Assembly: GCA_004144595.1 (NCBI GenBank) | Contig: SEEM01000020.1 | Span: 1 to 53,110 of the forward strand | Length of the DNA stretch: 53,110 nucleotides | From: Hyphomicrobiales bacterium | GTDB lineage: Bacteria > Pseudomonadota > Alphaproteobacteria > Rhizobiales > Beijerinckiaceae | Direction: 5' to 3' | Shown here: positions 1,500-11,575 of the stretch, piece after piece | Layout of the letters: the number at the start of each line of letters is the position of its first letter | Position numbering within the stretch: the stretch's first letter is position 1 | The notes under the pieces: model-generated | Told to the model about the DNA's origin: nothing | The model's input: the letters and a program-made list of their open reading frames with translations, nothing else | Database searches by the model: none | Translations under genes and position numbers: made by a program

Positions 1500-3287
1500 T
1501 CATTTCTTCGGTGGCGGCCGGGCGATGCCCCCGCCTCCGCCGGGCCTGACCGCGCTGTAGCGGTCGAGCCTGATCTTGATCATGTCGTTGAACTTCTTGT
1601 GGACTTCGGAGACAGAGAGCACCTTGGTCTCGCCGCCGGCATCGGAATAGAAGATCGGGCGGTTCGCCTGGGCCGGCCGCGGCAACAGCTCCGCCGCCTT
1701 GACGCCCGGCGTCTCTTCCATCGTCTCGATGAAGGTCTGCGCCGCGTCGGGACCGAGGAAATGGATCAGGTAGATTTCGCCCCCGGTAAGGTGGCGGCCC
1801 AGCGCCCGCTCCAGCCTCAGCGTATCGCGCTTCAACATCTCGGCCGCCAGCAGCGCCGAGATATAGGGCTCGCGCCGCATGTCGAGGATGCGCTGACGCT
1901 GGGACCCGTCGGTCACGACGAATTGCCGCCCGGACCGGCCGATCAGCTTCACGTCGGCGGCGAGTCCGTGCTTGGTCCCAAACTCGTAGATCACGCCCAG
2001 CCAGGTCTGCTCGATGAACTGGTAGAGCCCGGTCGCCGAGGAGGTCTGCGCCTTCACCGCCGTCGAGAACGACGATTCCTTGTCGGCCACGGCCATCAGC
2101 AGGGTCGGGTCCGCGCCCACGACCTTGCTCGCGCGCACGATCAGGTCGACGAGATGGCGGCGGATCTTGATCGGCCCGAAAGCCAGGATCTGGTCGGGAT
2201 CGCCGCTGGAAATCTGCGGCGGTGGCTGGGGCGCGCCGCTCGGCGAGACCGGTCCCGGCGGTGGCCCGCTCTGCATCTTCGGCGGCACCAGCAGGATGTT
2301 CGAGGGCAATTGCAGCTGGTTGACCGGCATCTGCTGGGCCGGCGCGTCGTCCTGCGGCTTGATCGCCGCCAGCGACGGATCATTGTCGAGGGCGAACTGG
2401 GCGGCCTGCCGCGCGCCCTCCAGATCCTGCTCCACCGAGGACAGGATCAGCGAGGGCCGTGCCGGTGCATCCTTCAACGCCGGCGCCTCGAAGGCCGCGA
2501 TCTCGATGCCCCGCTCGGGCTGCGGCCGCTCCTGCTGCTGCAGCCGGGCATAGGCGAGGCCAAGCACGCCAGCCGTCAGACAAGCCACGCCAGCCGCCAC
2601 GACCGCAATCGCCCTGCGTCCGGAAGCGGTCTTCTTTGGCCGCGCATCAACCAGGCCGGCCGCATCCGCAGGCTTCGCCGGAAGCGCTTGCGGAGCTGTC
2701 GCCGAAGCGGCCGCCCGAGGCGAAACCGGCTGCGCGGCGGAAACGGAAGGCTGGACCGGAGCACCGCGTGCCGGCTCAACCGGCCGCCTTCGCGAGGGAG
2801 CGGAAGCCAACGGCGCCGGAGCAGGCGATGGCGCCGGCGGTGGTGCGGGAGCCGCAGGCACCGCTGCCGCCTCCGGCTTTCCTGTCACCGCGCTCCGCAA
2901 CCTCTCCAGCCAGCCGGCATCTCCCTTCCCCGCAAGCGTCGTCAGGTCATCGGCAAGACGCTGAGCCATCACTTGCGGCACGCTCGCCTCGCGCGCAATC
3001 ATGCTGACGGCGGCCTTGCCGGGTTGCTCCGACACCACCTTCAGCGCGTAGAACCAGAGCTGGAGCGGGGTGCGCCGGCTTTCCAGCGGCGTCCCGGCCG
3101 CCGGATGGATCATGTAGTTGCAATGCTGGCAGGCGAAGCCGCGCAACTTCGGGCGCGGCTCGAACTGCGCCGGCCGGCCGCAGGCGGGGCAGGTCATGCT
3201 CGTCCCGCCATGGCGCAGGCGCATCAACGCGGCGAGGCAAGCCTCCTCCGGAAACAGCGCCTGGAATTGACGGAAGCGCTCGCTCAT
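1500..3287 (-). CDS. IS1595-type zinc-ribbon / single-pass membrane / lytic transglycosylase fusion
   Basis: This 595-residue protein has three parts. Residues 28-80 form a zinc ribbon (CPAC at 33-36, CQHC at 53-56) followed by AGTPLESRRTPLQLWFYAL, the signature of the zinc ribbon in IS1595-type transposases. After a Pro/Ala-rich linker, residues 226-246 form one membrane segment. Residues 380-520 resemble a lytic transglycosylase SLT domain: ADKESSF carries the expected catalytic glutamate (Glu404), followed by SSATGLYQFIEQTW. The topology would put the ribbon in the cytoplasm and the transglycosylase in the periplasm, where it would cut peptidoglycan. No transposase catalytic core is present, so this is not a transposase. 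The ribosome-binding site is weak. Confidence is high for the domains and low for the joint role. Confidence 0.85.
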   Translation of the reverse strand: MSERFRQFQALFPEEACLAALMRLRHGGTSMTCPACGRPAQFEPRPKLRGFACQHCNYMIHPAAGTPLESRRTPLQLWFYALKVVSEQPGKAAVSMIAREASVPQVMAQRLADDLTTLAGKGDAGWLERLRSAVTGKPEAAAVPAAPAPPPAPSPAPAPLASAPSRRRPVEPARGAPVQPSVSAAQPVSPRAAASATAPQALPAKPADAAGLVDARPKKTASGRRAIAVVAAGVACLTAGVLGLAYARLQQQERPQPERGIEIAAFEAPALKDAPARPSLILSSVEQDLEGARQAAQFALDNDPSLAAIKPQDDAPAQQMPVNQLQLPSNILLVPPKMQSGPPPGPVSPSGAPQPPPQISSGDPDQILAFGPIKIRRHLVDLIVRASKVVGADPTLLMAVADKESSFSTAVKAQTSSATGLYQFIEQTWLGVIYEFGTKHGLAADVKLIGRSGRQFVVTDGSQRQRILDMRREPYISALLAAEMLKRDTLRLERALGRHLTGGEIYLIHFLGPDAAQTFIETMEETPGVKAAELLPRPAQANRPIFYSDAGGETKVLSVSEVHKKFNDMIKIRLDRYSAVRPGGGGGIARPPPKK

Positions 3288-3353
3288 TCCGCTGGCCCGC
3301 GCTCCATCGCCCCCTGCCGCAACGTTATTCCTCGGAGGGGCGCTTCACAATCG

Positions 3354-4907
3354 TCACGCACGCAGCAGCCCAAGGCGCGCGACATCCTTCAGATGCATCG
3401 CGACCTCCTCCGCCGTCGCCCGCTCCGGTAGGGCGGGAATGGTGATGCCGGCGCTGCGGGTTTCGTCGAGGAAGGCGTTCATCGCCTCGAGCAGCATGCG
3501 CTGGTCGCGCGAGCCGTCGAGCAGGCTGATGAATTTGCGCACGACGACGCCGTCGAGCTGGACGGTGCGATGGCGCAGGTCCGTGACCTCGGCGGAAGTC
3601 GAGGCCTGCCAGCGCGCGATCTCGCTGGCCGCCGGCTTCTCGCTGATCGCAGTCGTCAGCGGCGGCGCTTCCAGCCGGATGTCGAGCAACCCCGCCTTGA
3701 AGATCGCGATCAGCGCTTCGTCGAGCCTCGCGATCTCGTGCGCCCGGTCCGGCCCCAGCTCGGGCGCCGCGCCGTGGCAGGACTGTTCGACCAGTTCCTC
3801 CCAGGCGATGCTCGCCGGCCAGAGCGTGCTGAGGATCACGAGCGCGGCCTTGCAGAGCGGCAGGTCCACCGCGAGTTGCACGCCCTCGTCGAAGCTGAAA
3901 CGCTGGACACCCGGCTTCTCATCGGCTTTGGCCGGCGCTTGCCGCACATTGGCGGCGAGATGATAGGGCTTGAGCGAGCCCGGCCGCACGCCACGCCTCA
4001 GCGGGATATCAGCCCGGCACAGCAGCGTCTCGCGAAAGGCCCGGCCGATCAGCAGGTCGAGCGTCTGCTCGCGCAGCGCCATCTGCTCCAGCGGCATCCT
4101 GTCGAGCATCTGCTGGGCCGGCCCCTTGGCGGCGCCGTAGAGGTTGGGAAACGATGCCTCGGCCAGGAACTGCAGGCCACGGCCCTCGGCGACCGAGAGC
4201 ACCTCGTGCAGCGCGAAGGCGCGCGCGCCGGGGTTGAGGTCGTCGTGATAGAGGACGTTGTCGGGGACTTCGTCGATCTGCTTCAGCCGTTGCCGCAGCG
4301 CCGCGCCGTGGAAGCTGTCCGGGTCGCTGGCTTCGGCGATCTCCTTCAGGGCGGCGCGCGCGACCCTGACCCGCTCGCGCGGCTCCTCGATATCCTTGAC
4401 CGCGAAGAGCATCACGTCGCGCGCGAGGTCGCGCAGACGGCATCCGGGCAGCGCGTTGTAGCTGACATAGGCGACGCCGTGCGGCGCCAGCAATTGCCCG
4501 AACAGCGCGATGATCCGCTCGCGCACCACATCCGGCACCCAGGAATAGACACCGTGGACGATGACGTAGTCGAAGATCCCGATCTCCTCCCCCAAAGCGA
4601 GGATATCGCGCTGCTCGAAGGCGAGATTGCTTAGGCCCAGCTCCGAAGCATTGGCGCTCGCCTGCCGGATCGAATCGCCGCTGAGATCGATGCCGAGGAA
4701 GCGGCTGCCGGGATATTGCGCCGCCATCGGGATGAGATTGCCGCCGCGCCCGCAGCCGAGTTCGAGCACGCGCATCGCCGTCGGCAGGGCCGGGTCCATG
4801 CCGTGGAAATGAGCGATGGTCGCCAGCCGCGAGGGATGGGTCTGCGAAAAGGAATGGCCGGGATAGGCCACGGCATCATAGGGATTGATGGCAGGATCGC
4901 TCGTCAT
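3354..4907 (-). CDS. Class I SAM-dependent methyltransferase with methyltransferase regulatory domain
   Basis: The 517-residue protein begins with a Rossmann methyltransferase domain. The SAM-binding motif is VLELGCGRGGN (about residues 47-57), followed by FLGIDLSGDSI for the ribose-binding acidic residue and QRDI. The middle part (NALPGCRLRDLARDVMLFA, then about 80 residues) matches the methyltransferase regulatory domain. The C-terminal part (about residues 330-517) resembles the extra region of protein-lysine methyltransferases of the rickettsial PKMT type. The target is unknown; protein methylation, perhaps of surface proteins, is an inference from that resemblance. A GGAAG site six bases upstream of the ATG supports the start. 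It is transcribed divergently from the caspase-barrel gene. Confidence 0.85.
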   Translation of the reverse strand: MTSDPAINPYDAVAYPGHSFSQTHPSRLATIAHFHGMDPALPTAMRVLELGCGRGGNLIPMAAQYPGSRFLGIDLSGDSIRQASANASELGLSNLAFEQRDILALGEEIGIFDYVIVHGVYSWVPDVVRERIIALFGQLLAPHGVAYVSYNALPGCRLRDLARDVMLFAVKDIEEPRERVRVARAALKEIAEASDPDSFHGAALRQRLKQIDEVPDNVLYHDDLNPGARAFALHEVLSVAEGRGLQFLAEASFPNLYGAAKGPAQQMLDRMPLEQMALREQTLDLLIGRAFRETLLCRADIPLRRGVRPGSLKPYHLAANVRQAPAKADEKPGVQRFSFDEGVQLAVDLPLCKAALVILSTLWPASIAWEELVEQSCHGAAPELGPDRAHEIARLDEALIAIFKAGLLDIRLEAPPLTTAISEKPAASEIARWQASTSAEVTDLRHRTVQLDGVVVRKFISLLDGSRDQRMLLEAMNAFLDETRSAGITIPALPERATAEEVAMHLKDVARLGLLRA

Positions 4908-5277
4908 GGCCGCTTCCGCCCCGCTCCGTCCGCATCATTCCAGCCGAAGCGCCGCCCGGACGCCTCATTCATTTGAAGGAGCGGGCCCCGAGAGTGCCCG
5001 TCCGGCGCGTGCGAAACAAACCCCGCCGATCCGACAATTAAGTCACACCGGAGCGATTATACTTGCGACAGCGCTACGACTGCTGAGGATAACGCAAGGC
5101 AGGAATTGAACAAATAGGCCTTCGGCTCCGCTCTTCTCCATGGTTTTTTCGTGTCGATTTGATGTTGCTTCAACCGCCCGGTTTCTGGAAATCTCCATCA
5201 TATGACGGATGCCCGTTTGAATCGCGGGCGCCAGACAGGTCCAGCGAGTCGCTTTGCTCGCGCGCAGGAGAAGCAGC
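4908..5277. other. Intergenic region between divergent genes
   Basis: About 370 bases separate the methyltransferase from the caspase-barrel gene, so promoters for both directions should lie here. A TATACT-like sequence at 5058 and an A/T-richer stretch at 5100-5170 are the only promoter-like features I can see. I find no convincing gene, tRNA or strong inverted repeat. Confidence 0.4.
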
Positions 5278-7425
5278 ATGCGGATTCAAGCCCGGGCCTA
5301 TGCGTATCTCGTCGCTGCATTGGCTGCGGTCTTCGTCACGTTCAGCCTCGGTGCCACGCCCGCTCTTGCGCAAAAGCGCTTCGCCTTCGTCGTCGGCAAT
5401 GGCGAATATGCGAATGTCACCAAGCTGCCCAACGCACTGAACGACGCCAATGCGACCCGCACCATGCTGCAGGAAGCTGGCTTCGACATCACGCCGGCCC
5501 TCGACCTGTCTCTCGCCGGCCTGCGCAGCGCGCTCGACGTCTTCGTCGACAAGGTGCGCCGGGGTGGCCCTGACGCGACGGCGCTGGTCTATTACGCCGG
5601 TCATGCTGTCCAGCTCGACGGCGCCAACTACATCCTGCCGACCGACGTCCGCCCGCAGATCGCAACCCGGATCGCCGATCAATCGCTGTCGCTGAGCGAT
5701 ATCCTGAAGCGGCTCGACGGCGCCGGCGCCAAGTCCAAGATCGCGATCCTCGACGCCTGCCGCAATAACCCCTTTGCGGACCGCCCGACCGCCCGGGGTC
5801 TCGCCCTGCAGATCGTCGACGGCGCCAATGAAGGCATCAACAGCGAAGCCGGTCTTGCCCGCATCGACTCCAATAGCGGCACTTTCGTCGCCTTCGCGAC
5901 TTCTCCGGGCTCTACCGCTGCGGACGGCACCGGCGCCAACAGCCCCTTCACCACGGCATTCCTGCGCGAGGCGCGCGAGCCGGGTCTCGCCGTCGAGCAG
6001 ATTTTCCGGCGCATCCGCCTAGCCGTCTACGATTCCACCAACGGCACCCAGATCCCCTGGGATACCTCCTCGCTGATCACCGAGTTCAGCTTCTTCCAGC
6101 GCCCTGCCGGTGCGCCGGCGCCGCAGTCTACCACGGCCGGCAACGTGCCTCTGGCGGCCCGCCCGACCCTTGCCTCGCTGCGCGGCATGGCCCCGGCCGA
6201 TGCCGCCCGCACCGCGATCGCCTGGGATCGCAGCGACATCTACGGCAACGCGCTCGCCTTGAATCCCGACGCCCAGGACGCACTGCGCCTGAACCGCATC
6301 CTCGCCCAGCGGACAGATGAGCGGGCCTGGTCCGAAGCCATCCTCGCCGGTGATGCCGAATCCCTAAAGCTCTACGCACGGCTCTATCCGGTATCGGATC
6401 ACACCGCTGCGGCCTTGCGCCTGGCGGCGACTGCGCCGAGCCGCAACCGCGTCCAGGTCGCGCAGACCTGCCCGGTCTGCCCGGCCGTCCAGCAGCCCCG
6501 CTCGCGCCGGGCCGACTATACACCGCGCGGCGTCTCGCCGGCACGGTCCGGTATGCCGCGCCAGGCGCCCGTGACACCGCCCTACGCCCCCCCTCCGCAG
6601 GAACGGCAGGCTCAGGCGCCGGATGTGCCGATGCTCTACCCCGAGCGGCCGCGCTGGACGGGTTTCTATGCCGGCGGCTCGCTCGGCGGCGGCCGGCAAA
6701 GTGACCGCACGACCGTTGCTGGCCCGTTCGGCAGCCCGACCTTCACGCCAACGACAACGACGACCACTACCACGACGCTGCCAACGACCCCGTTCCCGAC
6801 GACGGTCGTGACGACCACCACGACGACCGGCGCACCGACCCCCACCGCGAGCGCGATCAATCCTCTGGCCGTGCCGCGCAGCCTGTCGCCAGATGGCAGC
6901 GGCATGGTCGGCGGCGCGCAGTTCGGCTTCAACTATCAGATCGGCGCGGTCGTCATCGGCGCCGAGACCGACCTGTCCGCGACGCGGCTCGGCGGCAGCC
7001 AGACGACTTCCGCCAATCCCGGCGGGACCCGCTTCACCACGCGCGCCGAGAACGAGGTCTCGATGCTCGGAACAGTCCGCGCCCGCGCCGGCTTCGTGCT
7101 CGGCGATTTCATGATCTATGGCAGCGGTGGCTACGCCTACGGCCTTGTCGACCAGAAGGGCTCGATCACGCCCGACAATCCCGCTACCACCTCTGGCGCC
7201 ACGGGCTCGCGTTCCGGCCTCGCTAGCGGCTGGGTGCTCGGCGGCGGCGTGGAATACGCGATCATGCCCGGCATGACGCTGAGGCTCGACTACGCGCATT
7301 ACGACCTCGGCAATCAGAAGCTGACCCTGCAGGACTATACCGGGCTCGCCCCCACGCAATACGCGACCATGCGCGCTCGCACGGCCGGGGATATCGTCAA
7401 GGCCGGCTTCAATTTCGGGTTCTGA
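5278..7425 (+). CDS. Caspase-like (peptidase C14) domain fused to an outer-membrane beta-barrel
   Basis: The start is the ATG at 5278, preceded by CAGGAGAAGCAGC; it gives a clean signal peptide ending ATPALA-Q. Residues 33-275 form a caspase-like domain with the catalytic pair in YYAGHAV (His109) and ILDACRNNPF (Cys161). A helical linker follows, with a CPVCP motif near 398-402 and a Pro-rich stretch. Residues 459-715 resemble an Omp25/OmpA-type eight-strand barrel: it opens with WTGFYAGGSLGGG, continues with VGGAQFGFNYQIG, and ends in the aromatic residue of GFNFGF, as expected for Bam-dependent insertion. Between the first two strands lies a Thr-rich insert of about 60 residues. This predicts a periplasmic caspase-like domain tethered to an outer-membrane pore or anchor. 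Proteolytic activity is inferred from the two residues only. Confidence 0.85.
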   Translation: MRIQARAYAYLVAALAAVFVTFSLGATPALAQKRFAFVVGNGEYANVTKLPNALNDANATRTMLQEAGFDITPALDLSLAGLRSALDVFVDKVRRGGPDATALVYYAGHAVQLDGANYILPTDVRPQIATRIADQSLSLSDILKRLDGAGAKSKIAILDACRNNPFADRPTARGLALQIVDGANEGINSEAGLARIDSNSGTFVAFATSPGSTAADGTGANSPFTTAFLREAREPGLAVEQIFRRIRLAVYDSTNGTQIPWDTSSLITEFSFFQRPAGAPAPQSTTAGNVPLAARPTLASLRGMAPADAARTAIAWDRSDIYGNALALNPDAQDALRLNRILAQRTDERAWSEAILAGDAESLKLYARLYPVSDHTAAALRLAATAPSRNRVQVAQTCPVCPAVQQPRSRRADYTPRGVSPARSGMPRQAPVTPPYAPPPQERQAQAPDVPMLYPERPRWTGFYAGGSLGGGRQSDRTTVAGPFGSPTFTPTTTTTTTTTLPTTPFPTTVVTTTTTTGAPTPTASAINPLAVPRSLSPDGSGMVGGAQFGFNYQIGAVVIGAETDLSATRLGGSQTTSANPGGTRFTTRAENEVSMLGTVRARAGFVLGDFMIYGSGGYAYGLVDQKGSITPDNPATTSGATGSRSGLASGWVLGGGVEYAIMPGMTLRLDYAHYDLGNQKLTLQDYTGLAPTQYATMRARTAGDIVKAGFNFGF

Positions 7426-7429
7426 GACC

Positions 7430-7466
7430 GACGAGACGCCCGCTGCTGTGAACTGCGGGCCTCGTC
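7430..7466 (+). terminator. Candidate transcription terminator hairpin after the caspase-barrel gene
   Basis: Five bases after the stop codon, GACGAG and GCCCGC pair with GCGGGC and CTCGTC. This gives a 12-bp stem with a two-base bulge and an 11-base loop. There is no clear T-run, so intrinsic termination is likely but unproven. Confidence 0.5.
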
Positions 7467-7492
7467 AGGCCTGACGACAGTGCCATGCCCCC

Positions 7493-7521
7493 TTGACACC
7501 GGCAGGTGCGATGGGGAATTT
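7493..7521 (+). promoter_or_regulatory. Candidate sigma-70 promoter for tRNA-Gly
   Basis: A perfect TTGACA at 7493-7498 lies 33 bases before the tRNA 5' end. A weak -10 element (GAATTT at 7516-7521) follows at 17 bases. The spacing would start transcription a few bases before the mature tRNA. This is inferred from position and motif only. Confidence 0.5.
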
Positions 7522-7531
7522 GGCGCCCGAT

Positions 7532-7605
7532 GCGGGTGTAGCTCAATGGTAGAGCAGCAGCCTTCCAAGCTGAATACCCGGGTTCGATTCCCGGTACCCG
7601 CTCCA
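7532..7605 (+). tRNA. tRNA-Gly (anticodon UCC)
   Basis: The 74-base sequence folds as a full cloverleaf. The acceptor stem is GCGGGTG with TACCCGC, ending T-CCA, so the CCA tail is encoded. The D arm is GCTC/GAGC. The anticodon loop CTTCCAA carries TCC, which reads GGA and GGG codons. The T arm is CCGGG-TTCGATT-CCCGG. The first anticodon-stem pair (G-A) is a mismatch. It stands alone between the caspase-barrel gene and the convergent GGDEF-EAL gene. tRNA genes are common integration sites, but I see no integrase nearby. Confidence 0.97.
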
Positions 7606-7722
7606 CCTTCCTCTGTCGCCCTGCTGCACAGGTTCCCCCGCTCATGCGCGCCCGGTCGAACCGCGTCTGCCGGCGGGATGCCGCAATCGTATGCCGCTAC
7701 GGGGCACGCCCCTCCAGAGGCG

Positions 7723-10449
7723 CTATAACATGTCTGACGAATCGTGCGCCCGCCCCCCGCCCCGCTGCCCCCCACGGCTCCGGCTGGGGCGCCTGAACAG
7801 CGTCGTATGGAGCGCCTGCAGGATCGGTTGCGGTTTTCCCAGAAGGTAGCCCTGAGCTTCCGTGCAGCCTGCCCGATCCACCGCATCGAGCTGATCCGGT
7901 GTCTCGATGCCTTCCGCCGTGGTCGCCATGCCGAGTTCGGCAGCCAAGGCGGCAACCGCGGTGACGATGGCGGCGCTCTCGGAATGGGCCGTCATGTCGC
8001 TCACGAAAGAGCGGTCGATCTTGACCTTGTCGAGCGGAAACAGCCGCAGATGGCTCAGGCTGGAATAGCCAGTGCCGAAATCGTCGAGCACGATGCGGAC
8101 ACCGAGATCCTTCAGGCTCCTCAACGTTCCAAGATTGCGATTGTCGTTGGCGAGCAGCGCGGTCTCGGTGATCTCGAGTTCGAGCCGCGCCGGATCGAGC
8201 CCGGTCTCTGCGAGGATATCGCGCACGGTCGCGACAGCGTCGCCGAAGATCAATTGCACCGGCGAGAGGTTGACGGCGATGCGAAGATCGCCCGGCAGCT
8301 GAGCCGCATCCGTGCAGGCTTGCCGAATGACCCATTCGCCGAGATCGACGATCAGCCGCGTCTCCTCCGCCAGCGGCACGAAATCAGCCGGCCCGACCAG
8401 TCCCCGCTCCGGATGGTGCCAGCGCAGCAGCGCCTCGAAACCGCAGAGCTTGCTCGATTTAAGGTCGAAGATCGGCTGGTAGGCCAGTTCGAACTGCTGC
8501 TCTTCGATCGCCTTGCGGAGGTCCATTTCCAGGGCGAGGCGAGCGCGCAACTGCTCGTCCATCGCGGCCGTGAACACGCAGCAACCGCCGCGTCCCTGCG
8601 CCTTGGCCTGATAGAGCGCAAGATCAGCCTGCTTCAGCAGGAGGTCGGGATCGAAACCCGGCCCCTCGGCGACGGCGATGCCGATGCTTGCGGAAATCGA
8701 GATCGTCCGATCCTGGATGAAATAGGGCTGGCTCAGGACTTCGATGATGCGGGCACCCAGCGCCTCGGCCTGCTGCGGCTGCTCCTGGCCGAGACTGAGA
8801 ACCGCGAACTCGTCCCCGCCCAGCCGGGCCACGCATTCGGTATCCCGCACGCAGGTCGCCAGCCGCTCCGCGACCAGGAGAAGCAGCAGGTCGCCGACGG
8901 GATGCCCGAGCGTGTCGTTGACGTCCTTGAAGCGATCGAGATCGAGGAAGAGCAGCGCTACCGGTGCAGGATCGTCCCCCTTCCGCAGCAGCGACTTGGC
9001 GATCTGGCCACGGAAGGAAAAGCGGTTCTGCAAGCTCGTCAGGTCGTCGTGATGCGCCAGGAAGCGAATACGGCTTTCCTGTTCGAGCAGGGCCGCATTC
9101 TGCTGCCGCGCCTCTTCAGCCGCTTCGTTCGCACGCATGTTGGCGACGGCGAGTTCCGTTAGCGCTGCCTTGAGCGCCGTGATGTCGGTGCGGATGCCGA
9201 CGGTCCCGCCATCACGCATCTTTCTCTCGGTGATGAGAAGCCAGCGATCATCCGGCAGCAGGCGCTCGATCGAGCCGCTGCCCTGCCGGTGCCAGGCGGC
9301 GACATCCCGGACGAATTCATCGAGATCGCCGGTCGCCTGGGGGTATTGGCCGAGTTCGGCGCCCTTGCGGACGATCTCCTCGAAGGGCGCTCCGGCCGTC
9401 ATGAAGGGCGCGCTCAGGGCATAGAGCTCGCGATAGCGCTGGTTGCACGTCACCAGCCGGTCATCCTCGTCCCACATCACGAAACCGTCGGACATGGCCT
9501 CGATTGCGTTGTCGAGGACGGAGGCGGCCCGCGCGCGCTCGGCATCGGCCTGCTCGCGTTGATGGATGGCCAGCAGGATCGCCGCGGCAAAGGCGCTCAG
9601 CAGCATCACGGCAAAGCCGGCCGCCGCCACCGTCCGGTCGCGGTCACGGCGCCAATCCGCAAGCACCACCGTGCTCTTCGCGCTCAGGACGACCCGGAGA
9701 TCGCCGTAGAGCGAGGCCCTGACCACGTTGAGCGTGCTGGTATCGCTCGTCCTGTCTCCGATCATGAAGGCCTTGCCGCTCGCCGCCCGCTCGATCAGCG
9801 CAGAGGCGCGGGGCTTGCCGATCAGCAGCTCGTCATGCGGCAGCGTGGCGACGATCTGGCCGTTGGCGCGCTCAAGCGAAATCTGCGTGCCGGGGCCGAC
9901 ACCGGCCTCCCCCAGCAGCTTCATCAGGGTGTGCAGCGGCACTTCCGCAACGGGGATGATGCCGTGCCAGGCCGGAATCCGGCGCGCCATATAGAGCGCC
10001 CAGTCGCCGGTGACGGGGTTGCGCAGCGGGCCGATCAGGTTCGTCGGCATGCGCCAGACCATCGCGACGTCGAGCGGCAACGGATGACGCGCGCCGCTCG
10101 CCCTGGCGGAGGCCACGATGCTGCCATCCGGCCCGACCAGCAGCAGGTCGCGGAAAGCCATCGTCTGGAAATTCAGGCCGCGCAGCAGGCGGCTGGCGGC
10201 ATCTCTTTGGCCGGGGCCGATCTGCGCGACGTCGAACAGGGTCGGAAAGCTCGCCAGCGCCCCGTCGACCTGCAGCAATTGCCGGTCGAGCGCATTCTCG
10301 ACGGCTGCGGCCGCGCCTTCCAGGGATTGCTCGGCGGTGCGCCAGGCGGCCTCCTCCCTCTGGCGAACCAGATTGGAGGCGCCGAACGCGGCCACCGCCA
10401 TGATGGCCGCCATCCCCGCTACCACCGTGAGTTTAAGGCGCTTGATCAT
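7723..10449 (-). CDS. Membrane PAS-GGDEF-EAL cyclic di-GMP turnover protein
   Basis: The 908-residue protein has a membrane segment at about 7-25, a periplasmic sensor region of roughly 240 residues, and a second membrane segment at about 275-296. A PAS domain follows (about 310-430, SDGFVMWDEDDRLV), then GGDEF (about 465-625) with an intact active-site motif RLGGDEF (544-548). The EAL domain (from about 640) has FEALLRW, ELEITET and DDFGTGYSS. Both diguanylate cyclase and phosphodiesterase motifs look intact, so the net activity cannot be predicted. It starts at an ATG preceded by GAGGATCA. It lies 25 bases downstream of a TRAP-type binding protein on the same strand, suggesting that a small ligand controls cyclic di-GMP through the periplasmic region. 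Confidence 0.92.
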   Translation of the reverse strand: MIKRLKLTVVAGMAAIMAVAAFGASNLVRQREEAAWRTAEQSLEGAAAAVENALDRQLLQVDGALASFPTLFDVAQIGPGQRDAASRLLRGLNFQTMAFRDLLLVGPDGSIVASARASGARHPLPLDVAMVWRMPTNLIGPLRNPVTGDWALYMARRIPAWHGIIPVAEVPLHTLMKLLGEAGVGPGTQISLERANGQIVATLPHDELLIGKPRASALIERAASGKAFMIGDRTSDTSTLNVVRASLYGDLRVVLSAKSTVVLADWRRDRDRTVAAAGFAVMLLSAFAAAILLAIHQREQADAERARAASVLDNAIEAMSDGFVMWDEDDRLVTCNQRYRELYALSAPFMTAGAPFEEIVRKGAELGQYPQATGDLDEFVRDVAAWHRQGSGSIERLLPDDRWLLITERKMRDGGTVGIRTDITALKAALTELAVANMRANEAAEEARQQNAALLEQESRIRFLAHHDDLTSLQNRFSFRGQIAKSLLRKGDDPAPVALLFLDLDRFKDVNDTLGHPVGDLLLLLVAERLATCVRDTECVARLGGDEFAVLSLGQEQPQQAEALGARIIEVLSQPYFIQDRTISISASIGIAVAEGPGFDPDLLLKQADLALYQAKAQGRGGCCVFTAAMDEQLRARLALEMDLRKAIEEQQFELAYQPIFDLKSSKLCGFEALLRWHHPERGLVGPADFVPLAEETRLIVDLGEWVIRQACTDAAQLPGDLRIAVNLSPVQLIFGDAVATVRDILAETGLDPARLELEITETALLANDNRNLGTLRSLKDLGVRIVLDDFGTGYSSLSHLRLFPLDKVKIDRSFVSDMTAHSESAAIVTAVAALAAELGMATTAEGIETPDQLDAVDRAGCTEAQGYLLGKPQPILQALHTTLFRRPSRSRGGQRGGGRAHDSSDML

Positions 10450-10474
10450 TGATCCTCATCGAGCGGGCGGCAAG

Positions 10475-11575
10475 TCACGGCGTCCGGGCCTCGATGGCGT
10501 GAAGCGGCTTGAGATAGGTGTTCCAGGCCGAGACACAGCCTTGCCCGCAGCGCTCGAACCAGCGCGGCAGGACGACCTCGGCGAGAAGGCGCCGGCGCGT
10601 CGCGTCGTCGGACTGGGCCGGCACCACGGTCATCGGCCGCTCGGGCTTGCCTGCGCAGCTTGCCAAGCCGGCATTGCAGGCAAGGCCGGCTTGCGTATCG
10701 GCTTCCGTCTGCGACCAGATCCGCTCCTCGAGCCGGCCTACGCCCTGCCGGATGACGTCGCGCGCATCGGCGGGCAGCGCGTCCCAATAGGTCCCGTTGG
10801 CTCCAAAGATCGAGACGCCCCAGTTCAGCGCGAAAGCGTGAACCGCGACGGCCACGCGCGGCAGGCCGATCTCGTAGCCGCTCAGCGTGCCGGTGATCGC
10901 GCAGTCCGCCACCCCATCGCGCAAGGATACGGCAATGTCGGCAAAGGGCAGGATGATCGGCACGGCCCCCATCGCGGCCATCAGCTCCGATTGACCAACC
11001 GACGAGGTGCGCACTTTCCGGCCGGTCAGATCGTCGAGCCCCTTGAAAGGCTTGGTGCAGAACAGGACCTGGGCAGGCAGGGCATAGATTCCCAGAAGCT
11101 CGATATCGTAACGCTCGCGCATGACCTCACGCAGATGCGCCCGAAACGCCGAGACCGTGCGACGCAACGTCCCGACATCTGGGTTCAACACAGGCAGATC
11201 GACGGCGCTGAATTCCGGCTCCTCCCCCGCTATGGCGCTGAGCTGGGCCGTGCCGAACGACACCACGCCGAGCCGCAACAGCTGCAGCATTTCCTGATTG
11301 CGCAGACCACCGGTGTCGAGCGGCCGGATCGTTGCACTGATCCGTCCCTTCGACAGCGCATTGATCTCCGATAGCCAGAAGGGCTGCTCGATCTTGGTGT
11401 ACTGGGTGATGCCGCCGAGACCGCCGATGATCTGAAGTTTGATCGGTTCTTCGGGACGCGGCTGGGCCTGAGCCGCGAAACCTGCGAAGGCGAGCAGCGC
11501 GGCGACAACCGCAATCACGGGCTGCGCGCCCCGGCGCGGGCGAGAAGCGAGGGCGTCGTCGCAGGTCTTGGCCAT
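10475..11575 (-). CDS. TRAP-type (DctP family) solute-binding protein without a permease
   Basis: The 366-residue protein has an N-terminal signal sequence (VIAVVAALLAFAGFAAQAQ). Its DctP-like fold shows conserved stretches such as FKGLDDLTGRKVRTSS, which includes the arginine that usually contacts a substrate carboxylate, and DGVADCAITGTLSGYEIGLP. The family captures organic acids in the periplasm for TRAP transporters. Here no DctQ or DctM permease gene is adjacent. Instead a GGDEF-EAL membrane protein follows after 25 bases, so it may act as the ligand-sensing partner of that enzyme. Four cysteines in the C-terminal part (CNAGLASC and CGQGC) could form disulfides. The start ATG directly follows a G-run, so the true start is slightly uncertain. 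Confidence 0.88.
   Translation of the reverse strand: MAKTCDDALASRPRRGAQPVIAVVAALLAFAGFAAQAQPRPEEPIKLQIIGGLGGITQYTKIEQPFWLSEINALSKGRISATIRPLDTGGLRNQEMLQLLRLGVVSFGTAQLSAIAGEEPEFSAVDLPVLNPDVGTLRRTVSAFRAHLREVMRERYDIELLGIYALPAQVLFCTKPFKGLDDLTGRKVRTSSVGQSELMAAMGAVPIILPFADIAVSLRDGVADCAITGTLSGYEIGLPRVAVAVHAFALNWGVSIFGANGTYWDALPADARDVIRQGVGRLEERIWSQTEADTQAGLACNAGLASCAGKPERPMTVVPAQSDDATRRRLLAEVVLPRWFERCGQGCVSAWNTYLKPLHAIEARTP

Follow-up and report, generated by a model that had tools for sequence, protein, structure and literature searches.

A predicted outer-membrane-tethered caspase of Bosea and the probable exchange of its barrel

Introduction

Bacterial orthocaspases and metacaspases (Peptidase C14, PF00656) combine the caspase fold with a His-Cys dyad and an acidic S1 residue, and export signals are present in some members. 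MALT1, a paracaspase, is a human intracellular signalling protein that has no membrane barrel. Among outer-membrane proteins, the OmpA/Omp25-like family (OMP_b-brl) forms eight-strand barrels ending in Phe, and in OmpT the barrel itself is the enzyme and faces outwards. Here we describe a gene at positions 5278 to 7425 of a 53,110-nucleotide stretch from a Hyphomicrobiales bacterium (contig SEEM01000020.1 of assembly GCA_004144595.1, hereafter the window), which encodes a caspase domain and a C-terminal barrel in one polypeptide. It has the fold, dyad and acidic S1 residue of the orthocaspases and metacaspases, from which it differs in its C-terminal eight-strand outer-membrane barrel. Its barrel has the strands, the C-terminal Phe, the Pfam family and the fold match of the OmpA/Omp25-like proteins, and differs from them in a long Thr-rich loop 1 and in the 458-residue enzyme on its N-terminal side. 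Unlike in OmpT, barrel and enzyme are distinct domains, the latter with a predicted inward orientation.

In a trypanosome metacaspase, basic residues are accommodated by two S1-pocket aspartates, which prokaryotic relatives have retained (PMC6426788, available part). The partners of prokaryotic caspases listed in a 2012 survey include FGE-sulfatase, peptidoglycan-binding, TPR and WD40 domains and others, with OmpA found in 14 operons (PMC3501461, available part). The caspase-barrel combination was not found in the available parts of these two papers, and the accessible portion of PMC7475262 held nothing on such a fusion; more generally, no description of one was found in the open-licence literature searched.

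Results

A single frame encodes a caspase and an eight-strand barrel

Pfam profiles placed both the caspase and the barrel domain within a single frame of 715 residues, in agreement with the original prediction, which had read this gene as a caspase-like domain joined to an outer-membrane barrel. The parts of the protein are as follows.

5278..7425, + strand: fusion gene, 715 aa, with a predicted exported caspase, helical domain, leash and outer-membrane barrel
5278..5370, + strand: presumed Sec signal peptide, residues 1-31, judged by eye
5371..6102, + strand: caspase domain, residues 32-275
5443..5445, + strand: Asp56, aligned with the S1-pocket aspartate of MALT1 (61/61 rows)
5602..5604, + strand: His109 of the catalytic dyad, from the alignment
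5758..5760, + strand: Cys161 of the catalytic dyad, from the alignment
6160..6462, + strand: helical domain, residues 295-395, from the predicted model; common to unfused relatives
6463..6651, + strand: disordered Pro/Arg-rich leash, residues 396-458 (predicted local distance difference test, pLDDT, below 50 for 391-456)
6652..7422, + strand: eight-strand barrel, residues 459-715, with C-terminal Phe, from Pfam, predicted models and fold match

Peptidase C14 (PF00656) scored 129.5 bits against a curated cut-off of 21.4, and the match spanned positions 1-232 of 233 in the profile, in which p20 and p10 are scored together. The NCBIfam model of EACC1-associated caspases (NF047832) gave 41.1 bits, far under its cut-off of 140. 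The caspase fold was present in the predicted model, and when the whole chain was compared with solved structures the matches listed were caspases only. The barrel was therefore folded and searched separately, and its fold matched OmpA. PF13505 (OMP_b-brl) scored 35 bits against a cut-off of 28.7, and OmpA_membrane, at 20.8 against 21, fell just below. Eight membrane strands appeared in both predicted models, of the whole chain and of the barrel alone, so that the caspase fold and the eight-strand barrel, for which structure prediction had been proposed as a check, were both found, the barrel within the limits (residues 459-715) that the original prediction had given. The original label of the barrel, Omp25-type, is fair with respect to the OMP_b-brl family and to the identity of up to 45% with standalone barrels of the genus, in a comparison that left out Omp25 itself.

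There is good reason to expect that the protein is exported by Sec, that its barrel spans the outer membrane and that the caspase is periplasmic. The signal peptide is suggested by a helix at residues 2-24 of the predicted model and by the ALA that precedes Gln32. Display of the caspase on the surface in the manner of an autotransporter (type V) was ruled out, as the barrel has eight strands and the C-terminal translocator of an autotransporter has 12.

The catalytic residues are invariant

His109, Cys161, Asp56 and Asp159 were invariant in all 61 aligned rows (56 fused and 5 unfused). The dyad, reported as intact by the original prediction, was also complete throughout the 111 fused database entries described below, in which the catalytic Cys was kept without exception and the His likewise (110 by pattern; P0056, with YHAGH, by eye). 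The MALT1 residue aligned with Asp56 is, we assume, D365 of the S1 pocket. An intact dyad with an acidic S1 residue would naturally be expected to make a protease specific for Arg or Lys, and we infer that the caspase head cleaves after one or the other. The comparisons thus establish the domain order, the intact dyad and their conservation, together with the fold as predicted.

The fusion is confined to Bosea as far as searched

The protein search found 411 entries, of which the best 120 were considered; only candidates sharing most words were scored (7,993), so distant fusions could be missed. Both domains were present in 111 of these 120, the window's own entry included, and all of the 111 that carry an organism name are Bosea. 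Phe was the last residue in each of the 111. At the genome level, 27 of 67 genomes of the genus carried the fusion as a single frame (cut short by a contig end in G021), and in one more it was split over two contigs. A sequencing or assembly error joining two genes, which the original prediction had named as a possible refutation, is refuted by the recurrence of this fused frame across 27 genomes and 111 entries, and nothing was found in its favour; we regard its probability as negligible.

In 298 genomes of the family, a caspase-helical query at E 1e-60 matched 15, of which 12 belonged to the same genus and three to other genera. In the three proteins from other genera, the leash cysteine accompanied the caspase and the helical part, the barrel was missing, and the chain ended in a Pro/Lys-rich stretch with a glycine-zipper-like tail. 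A search of the order with the barrel matched 190 of 297 genomes at E 1e-15, and nine loci outside the genus with barrel frames of at least 500 aa, among the matches listed, showed no caspase motif when judged by pattern. On plasmids, none of the 331 matching records covered 80% of the query at one place. As far as searched, the caspase-barrel fusion is confined to Bosea, and the tethering is as unusual as first suggested.

The unfused relatives (P0115-P0120 and L111-L113) share the caspase and the helical domain, with 47-53% identity over the shared part. They differ in having a Pro/Lys-rich tail and no barrel, and a glycine-zipper-like segment occurs in the tails of P0115, P0116, P0117, P0120 and L111-L113. 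In the caspase-helical tree, the 56 fused rows stood apart from the five unfused rows with support of 100, as expected if the fusion arose once. At least one genome without the fusion has lost the gene. In G039, window positions 4985-7274 had no counterpart, and positions 7275-7435 aligned at 82% to L118 4293-4453, indicating that a 2.3-kb deletion relative to the window left only the last part of the barrel. This relic (L118 4282-4453) follows the methyltransferase gene described below, and a tRNA-Gly gene comes next, at L118 5603.

Two further arrangements of caspase genes were seen. Beside the unfused relatives of two genomes from another genus of the family lies a second long caspase gene (L111 846-3524, 892 aa; L112 681-3383, 900 aa), with apparent Sel1-type repeats judged by eye. 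A Hyphomicrobiales metagenome contig (L065 4190-10544) carries three caspase and four FGE-like stretches in tandem.

The leash carries two cysteines and an arginine motif

Two short elements stand out in the leash, where conservation is generally low (mean pairwise identity 52%).

6469..6480, + strand: CPVC, with Cys398 (also in aligned unfused relatives) and Cys401 (fusions only)
6496..6528, + strand: PRSRRADYTPR, a conserved leash motif and candidate self-cleavage site, from conservation

Beyond residue 35, every one of the 111 fused entries had exactly three cysteines, namely the catalytic one and the CPxC pair. Cys398 was present in all five aligned unfused rows, whereas Cys401 was found in 56/56 fused and 0/5 unfused rows. 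Since the protein has no other cysteine and would reside in an oxidising compartment, a redox role of the pair is suggested. We also considered that CPxC was a remnant of a caspase-FGE fusion, an idea that came from the FGE part of P0170, which starts with CxxCPEMV; this was dropped because the nearest unfused relatives have Cys398 only and no FGE domain.

Just after CPxC comes PRxRR(A/T)D(Y/F)(T/S)PR, in which R408, R410 and R411 were kept in 55/56 fused rows and P416 and R417 in 56/56. RxRRA was found within 30 residues of CPxC in 103 of the 111 fusions, and the remaining eight had near variants. It is plausible that the PRxRR motif is a self-cleavage site for an Arg-specific caspase; alternatively, it may bind lipopolysaccharide or peptidoglycan. 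That the head is kept latent and released through the CPxC and arginine motifs is a step for which, judging from their conservation, there is less reason than for export and barrel insertion.

The barrel appears to have been exchanged

The part of the barrel that is predicted to face the surroundings varies most.

6721..6894, + strand: extracellular loop 1, Thr-rich in the window and hypervariable (20 to 90 aa in measured columns, 56 fusions)

Apart from the signal peptide, loop 1 was the most variable region of the protein. In the measured columns, 29 of the 56 fused rows had a longer, mostly Thr-rich loop (32-90 aa) and 27 a short one (20 aa). The two groups were defined by loop length before the trees were built, and both the caspase and the barrel tree came from a quick search with a simple model. 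When loop 1 was removed, a single branch of the barrel tree, with support of 100, divided the two types. In the caspase-helical tree, by contrast with this, mapping the loop labels took 8 to 9 changes, and well-supported branches made at least 5 to 6 of these unavoidable; forcing the 29 long-loop rows together was rejected (approximately unbiased test, p 7e-5, fused rows only). Individual pairs gave the same picture: against the window, the caspase of P0036 was 98% identical and its barrel without loop 1 69%, and the corresponding values for P0077 were 74% and 82%. In the barrel tree, the short-loop rows P0033, P0036 and P0045 adjoined the long type with support of 96, indicating that the short type is not one uniform barrel and that there are at least three kinds.

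A similar pattern was seen in DNA. When the window was compared with genome G001 in 150-base blocks, identity was 79-98% throughout 3201 to 6600, where the lowest blocks (79-80%) were intergenic and signal-peptide sequence, and 84-91% from 7801 to 10500, whereas the blocks holding the barrel (6601-7500) were only 61-76% identical. Block 7651-7800 was also low (73%), so the right-hand edge of the divergent stretch is not sharp. Because barrel type disagrees with caspase lineage, whole barrels have probably been exchanged during evolution while the caspase head was kept. Different pressures thus seem to act on the surface part and on the enzyme. Recombination or locally fast change at the surface domain, with the enzyme unaffected, would be expected in a part exposed to phages, predators or other surface pressures; neutral recombination is a possible alternative.

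Barrels of this type are also joined to other domains. P0123 and P0134 are FecR-domain proteins with similar barrels, so signalling-type domains occur on them too. P0121 (423 aa) has the same leash motif and barrel, but its N-terminal part is unrelated and replaces the caspase; it lies on a 1.7-kb contig and is a possible recombinant or assembly fault.

These observations bear on what the barrel is for. It could be a mere anchor, Bosea having happened on a barrel among the various tails that hold such proteins in the envelope, and the protease a constitutive housekeeping enzyme that senses nothing. The tails of other caspases are in line with this, as relatives carry glycine-zipper-like segments, P0166, P0169, P0177, P0179, P0180 and P0182 have PF01471 peptidoglycan-binding domains, P0173 has an OmpA domain and P0170 has PF01471 with FGE; FGE-sulfatase and peptidoglycan-binding domains are also among the partners named in the 2012 survey (PMC3501461, available part). 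An anchor alone leaves unexplained, however, why barrel type departs from caspase lineage with the head retained and why loop 1 is long and variable, for which neutral recombination could account. We consider this explanation possible but doubtful.

Exchanged barrels and a hypervariable loop would also suit a surface guard, in which the barrel senses a phage, bacteriocin or predator and triggers the periplasmic caspase, and the cell is killed or sealed. The patchy presence in the genus and the deletion relic in G039 point the same way, and the fusion matched the PADLOC caspase model at 1e-14. This match, however, was restricted to the generic caspase part (residues 33-225, on 129 of 453 profile positions), and in the same scan, which covered two proteins, the neighbouring methyltransferase matched 'mad2' in its generic part only. 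Moreover, Pfam analysis of nine nearby frames gave no defence gene (four of these frames matched no family). Such a guard seems unlikely.

A lysine methyltransferase gene is linked to the fusion

The gene upstream of the fusion is divergently oriented.

3354..4907, - strand: divergent neighbour, a relative of outer-membrane protein-lysine methyltransferases (PKMT), from PDB and Pfam
4908..5277, no strand: region of 370 bp between the divergent PKMT and fusion genes

The product matched PDB 5dnk (E 3.6e-61, residues 8-481) and 5doo (E 6.8e-61, residues 9-468 of 517) as well as PF10119 and PF21782, and is homologous along most of rickettsial PKMT1/2. The region of 370 bp is possibly a shared promoter region. 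PKMTs of the rickettsial kind methylate outer-membrane proteins, and in 2024 the same was described for an Acinetobacter adhesin and the family was reported as widespread (PMC11784438, available part); the word caspase is absent from the text of PMC11784438.

Among the 67 genomes of the genus, 46 had a PKMT match at E 1e-60. All 28 fusion genomes were among them, and the fusion was found in none of the 21 genomes without a PKMT match (Fisher 5e-7, a test that ignores shared descent). The two genes were at most 7 kb apart in 21 of the 28, with twelve divergent pairs spaced by 350-473 bp and nine pairs by 2.0-6.8 kb; in the remaining fusion genomes PKMT was far off (two) or on another contig (five). 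Some caspase lay in the examined stretch beside PKMT in 37 of the 46 genomes (30 by tblastn, seven by coordinates), a tally made by hand on stretches that vary in size; two of the nine misses were on short contigs and one was about 3 kb from a contig end. By contrast, among 80 caspase loci mainly from other genera, tblastn detected a PKMT-like stretch in one (L064, weak), and in G101, outside Bosea, the caspase and PKMT genes were 2.3 Mb apart.

The linkage would be explained if the two enzymes formed a pair in which lysine methylation of outer-membrane proteins by PKMT shields them from a caspase specific for Lys or Arg. The co-occurrence, the proximity and the known activity of such PKMTs (PMC11784438, available part) are consistent with this. 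Shared descent alone could nevertheless yield the association in Bosea, 18 of the 46 PKMT genomes lack the fusion, the genes are separated in seven fusion genomes, and the near absence of the arrangement from the loci examined outside Bosea also counts against it; we find such a pairing quite improbable.

Other genes of the neighbourhood were noted as well. The neighbourhood examined in detail in one genome lacking the fusion (L119) encodes, by Pfam, a caspase-FGE protein, two DUF4399 proteins, a second caspase, an OmpA-domain protein and PKMT. This envelope cluster of Bosea spans L119 5936-14201 and L140 2623-13131, its second caspase being exported (for L140 partly by eye), and in L140 a caspase-barrel fusion lies at its end. 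A tRNA-Gly(TCC) gene lies just downstream of the fusion in the window (7532-7605) and occurred in 15 of 26 fusion loci scanned, with flanks of unequal length. Convergent to the fusion, on the minus strand at window 7723-10449, is a gene for a PAS-GGDEF-EAL cyclic-di-GMP protein, which lies near the fusion in several relatives, though not in all.

Discussion

The explanation that we favour, and hold to be reasonably probable, is that the gene encodes an outer-membrane-tethered periplasmic protease specific for Arg or Lys, with a latent head, a leash switch and a surface-facing barrel. The Sec-exported protein would consist of caspase head, helical domain, disordered leash and eight-strand barrel. 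With the barrel inserted in the outer membrane and both its ends in the periplasm, the caspase would hang at the inner face of that membrane, where the original prediction had placed it. The head, cleaving after Arg or Lys, may be held latent, with Cys398 capping Cys161 and Cys401 resolving that bond; this is less sure, as is the proposal that CPxC and the arginine motif form a switch in the leash, worked by redox change and self-cleavage, through which the head is freed or activated. Once released or activated, the head would cut envelope proteins, and the barrel would serve both as an anchor and as the part that faces the surface.

Several points weigh against this scheme. The Sec signal peptide was judged by eye, model confidence was low for residues 161-220 adjoining the catalytic Cys (block means 26-58), and a whole-chain predicted template-modelling score (pTM) of 0.48 means that the model does not fix the geometry between head and barrel. 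The redox and self-cleavage steps are argued from conservation, and in the model, where the leash is disordered, neither Cys398 nor Cys401 touches Cys161. As for the distribution, some of the 111 fused entries do not represent independent genes (P0043 and P0044, on contigs of equal length, are apparently a single gene with two starts), and 39 of the 67 genomes of the genus had no fusion match, indicating that the protein is not required by every species.

The elements could also be combined into a surface-gated caspase, in which the exchangeable barrel and its hypervariable loop sense an event at the surface, the CPxC/PRxRR leash releases or activates the periplasmic Arg/Lys caspase, and the linked PKMT marks self proteins as uncuttable. 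We offer this as speculation with a low probability; if true, a single polypeptide would serve as sensor and executioner across two compartments.

Beyond the original prediction, the comparisons brought out the probable barrel exchange, the cysteine pattern, the leash motif and the linked methyltransferase. The exported caspase described here, from an environmental genus, would be attached to the outer membrane. It offers a small conserved set of features (three cysteines, a leash motif and a linked lysine methyltransferase), each of which can be changed and tested. The apparent exchange of barrels parts the surface from the enzyme in evolution and would thereby offer a direct route to whatever the surface part reacts to. 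The fusion and the apparent barrel swap together point in the direction of a protease that is anchored in the membrane, with its outer face in contact with the surroundings of the cell.
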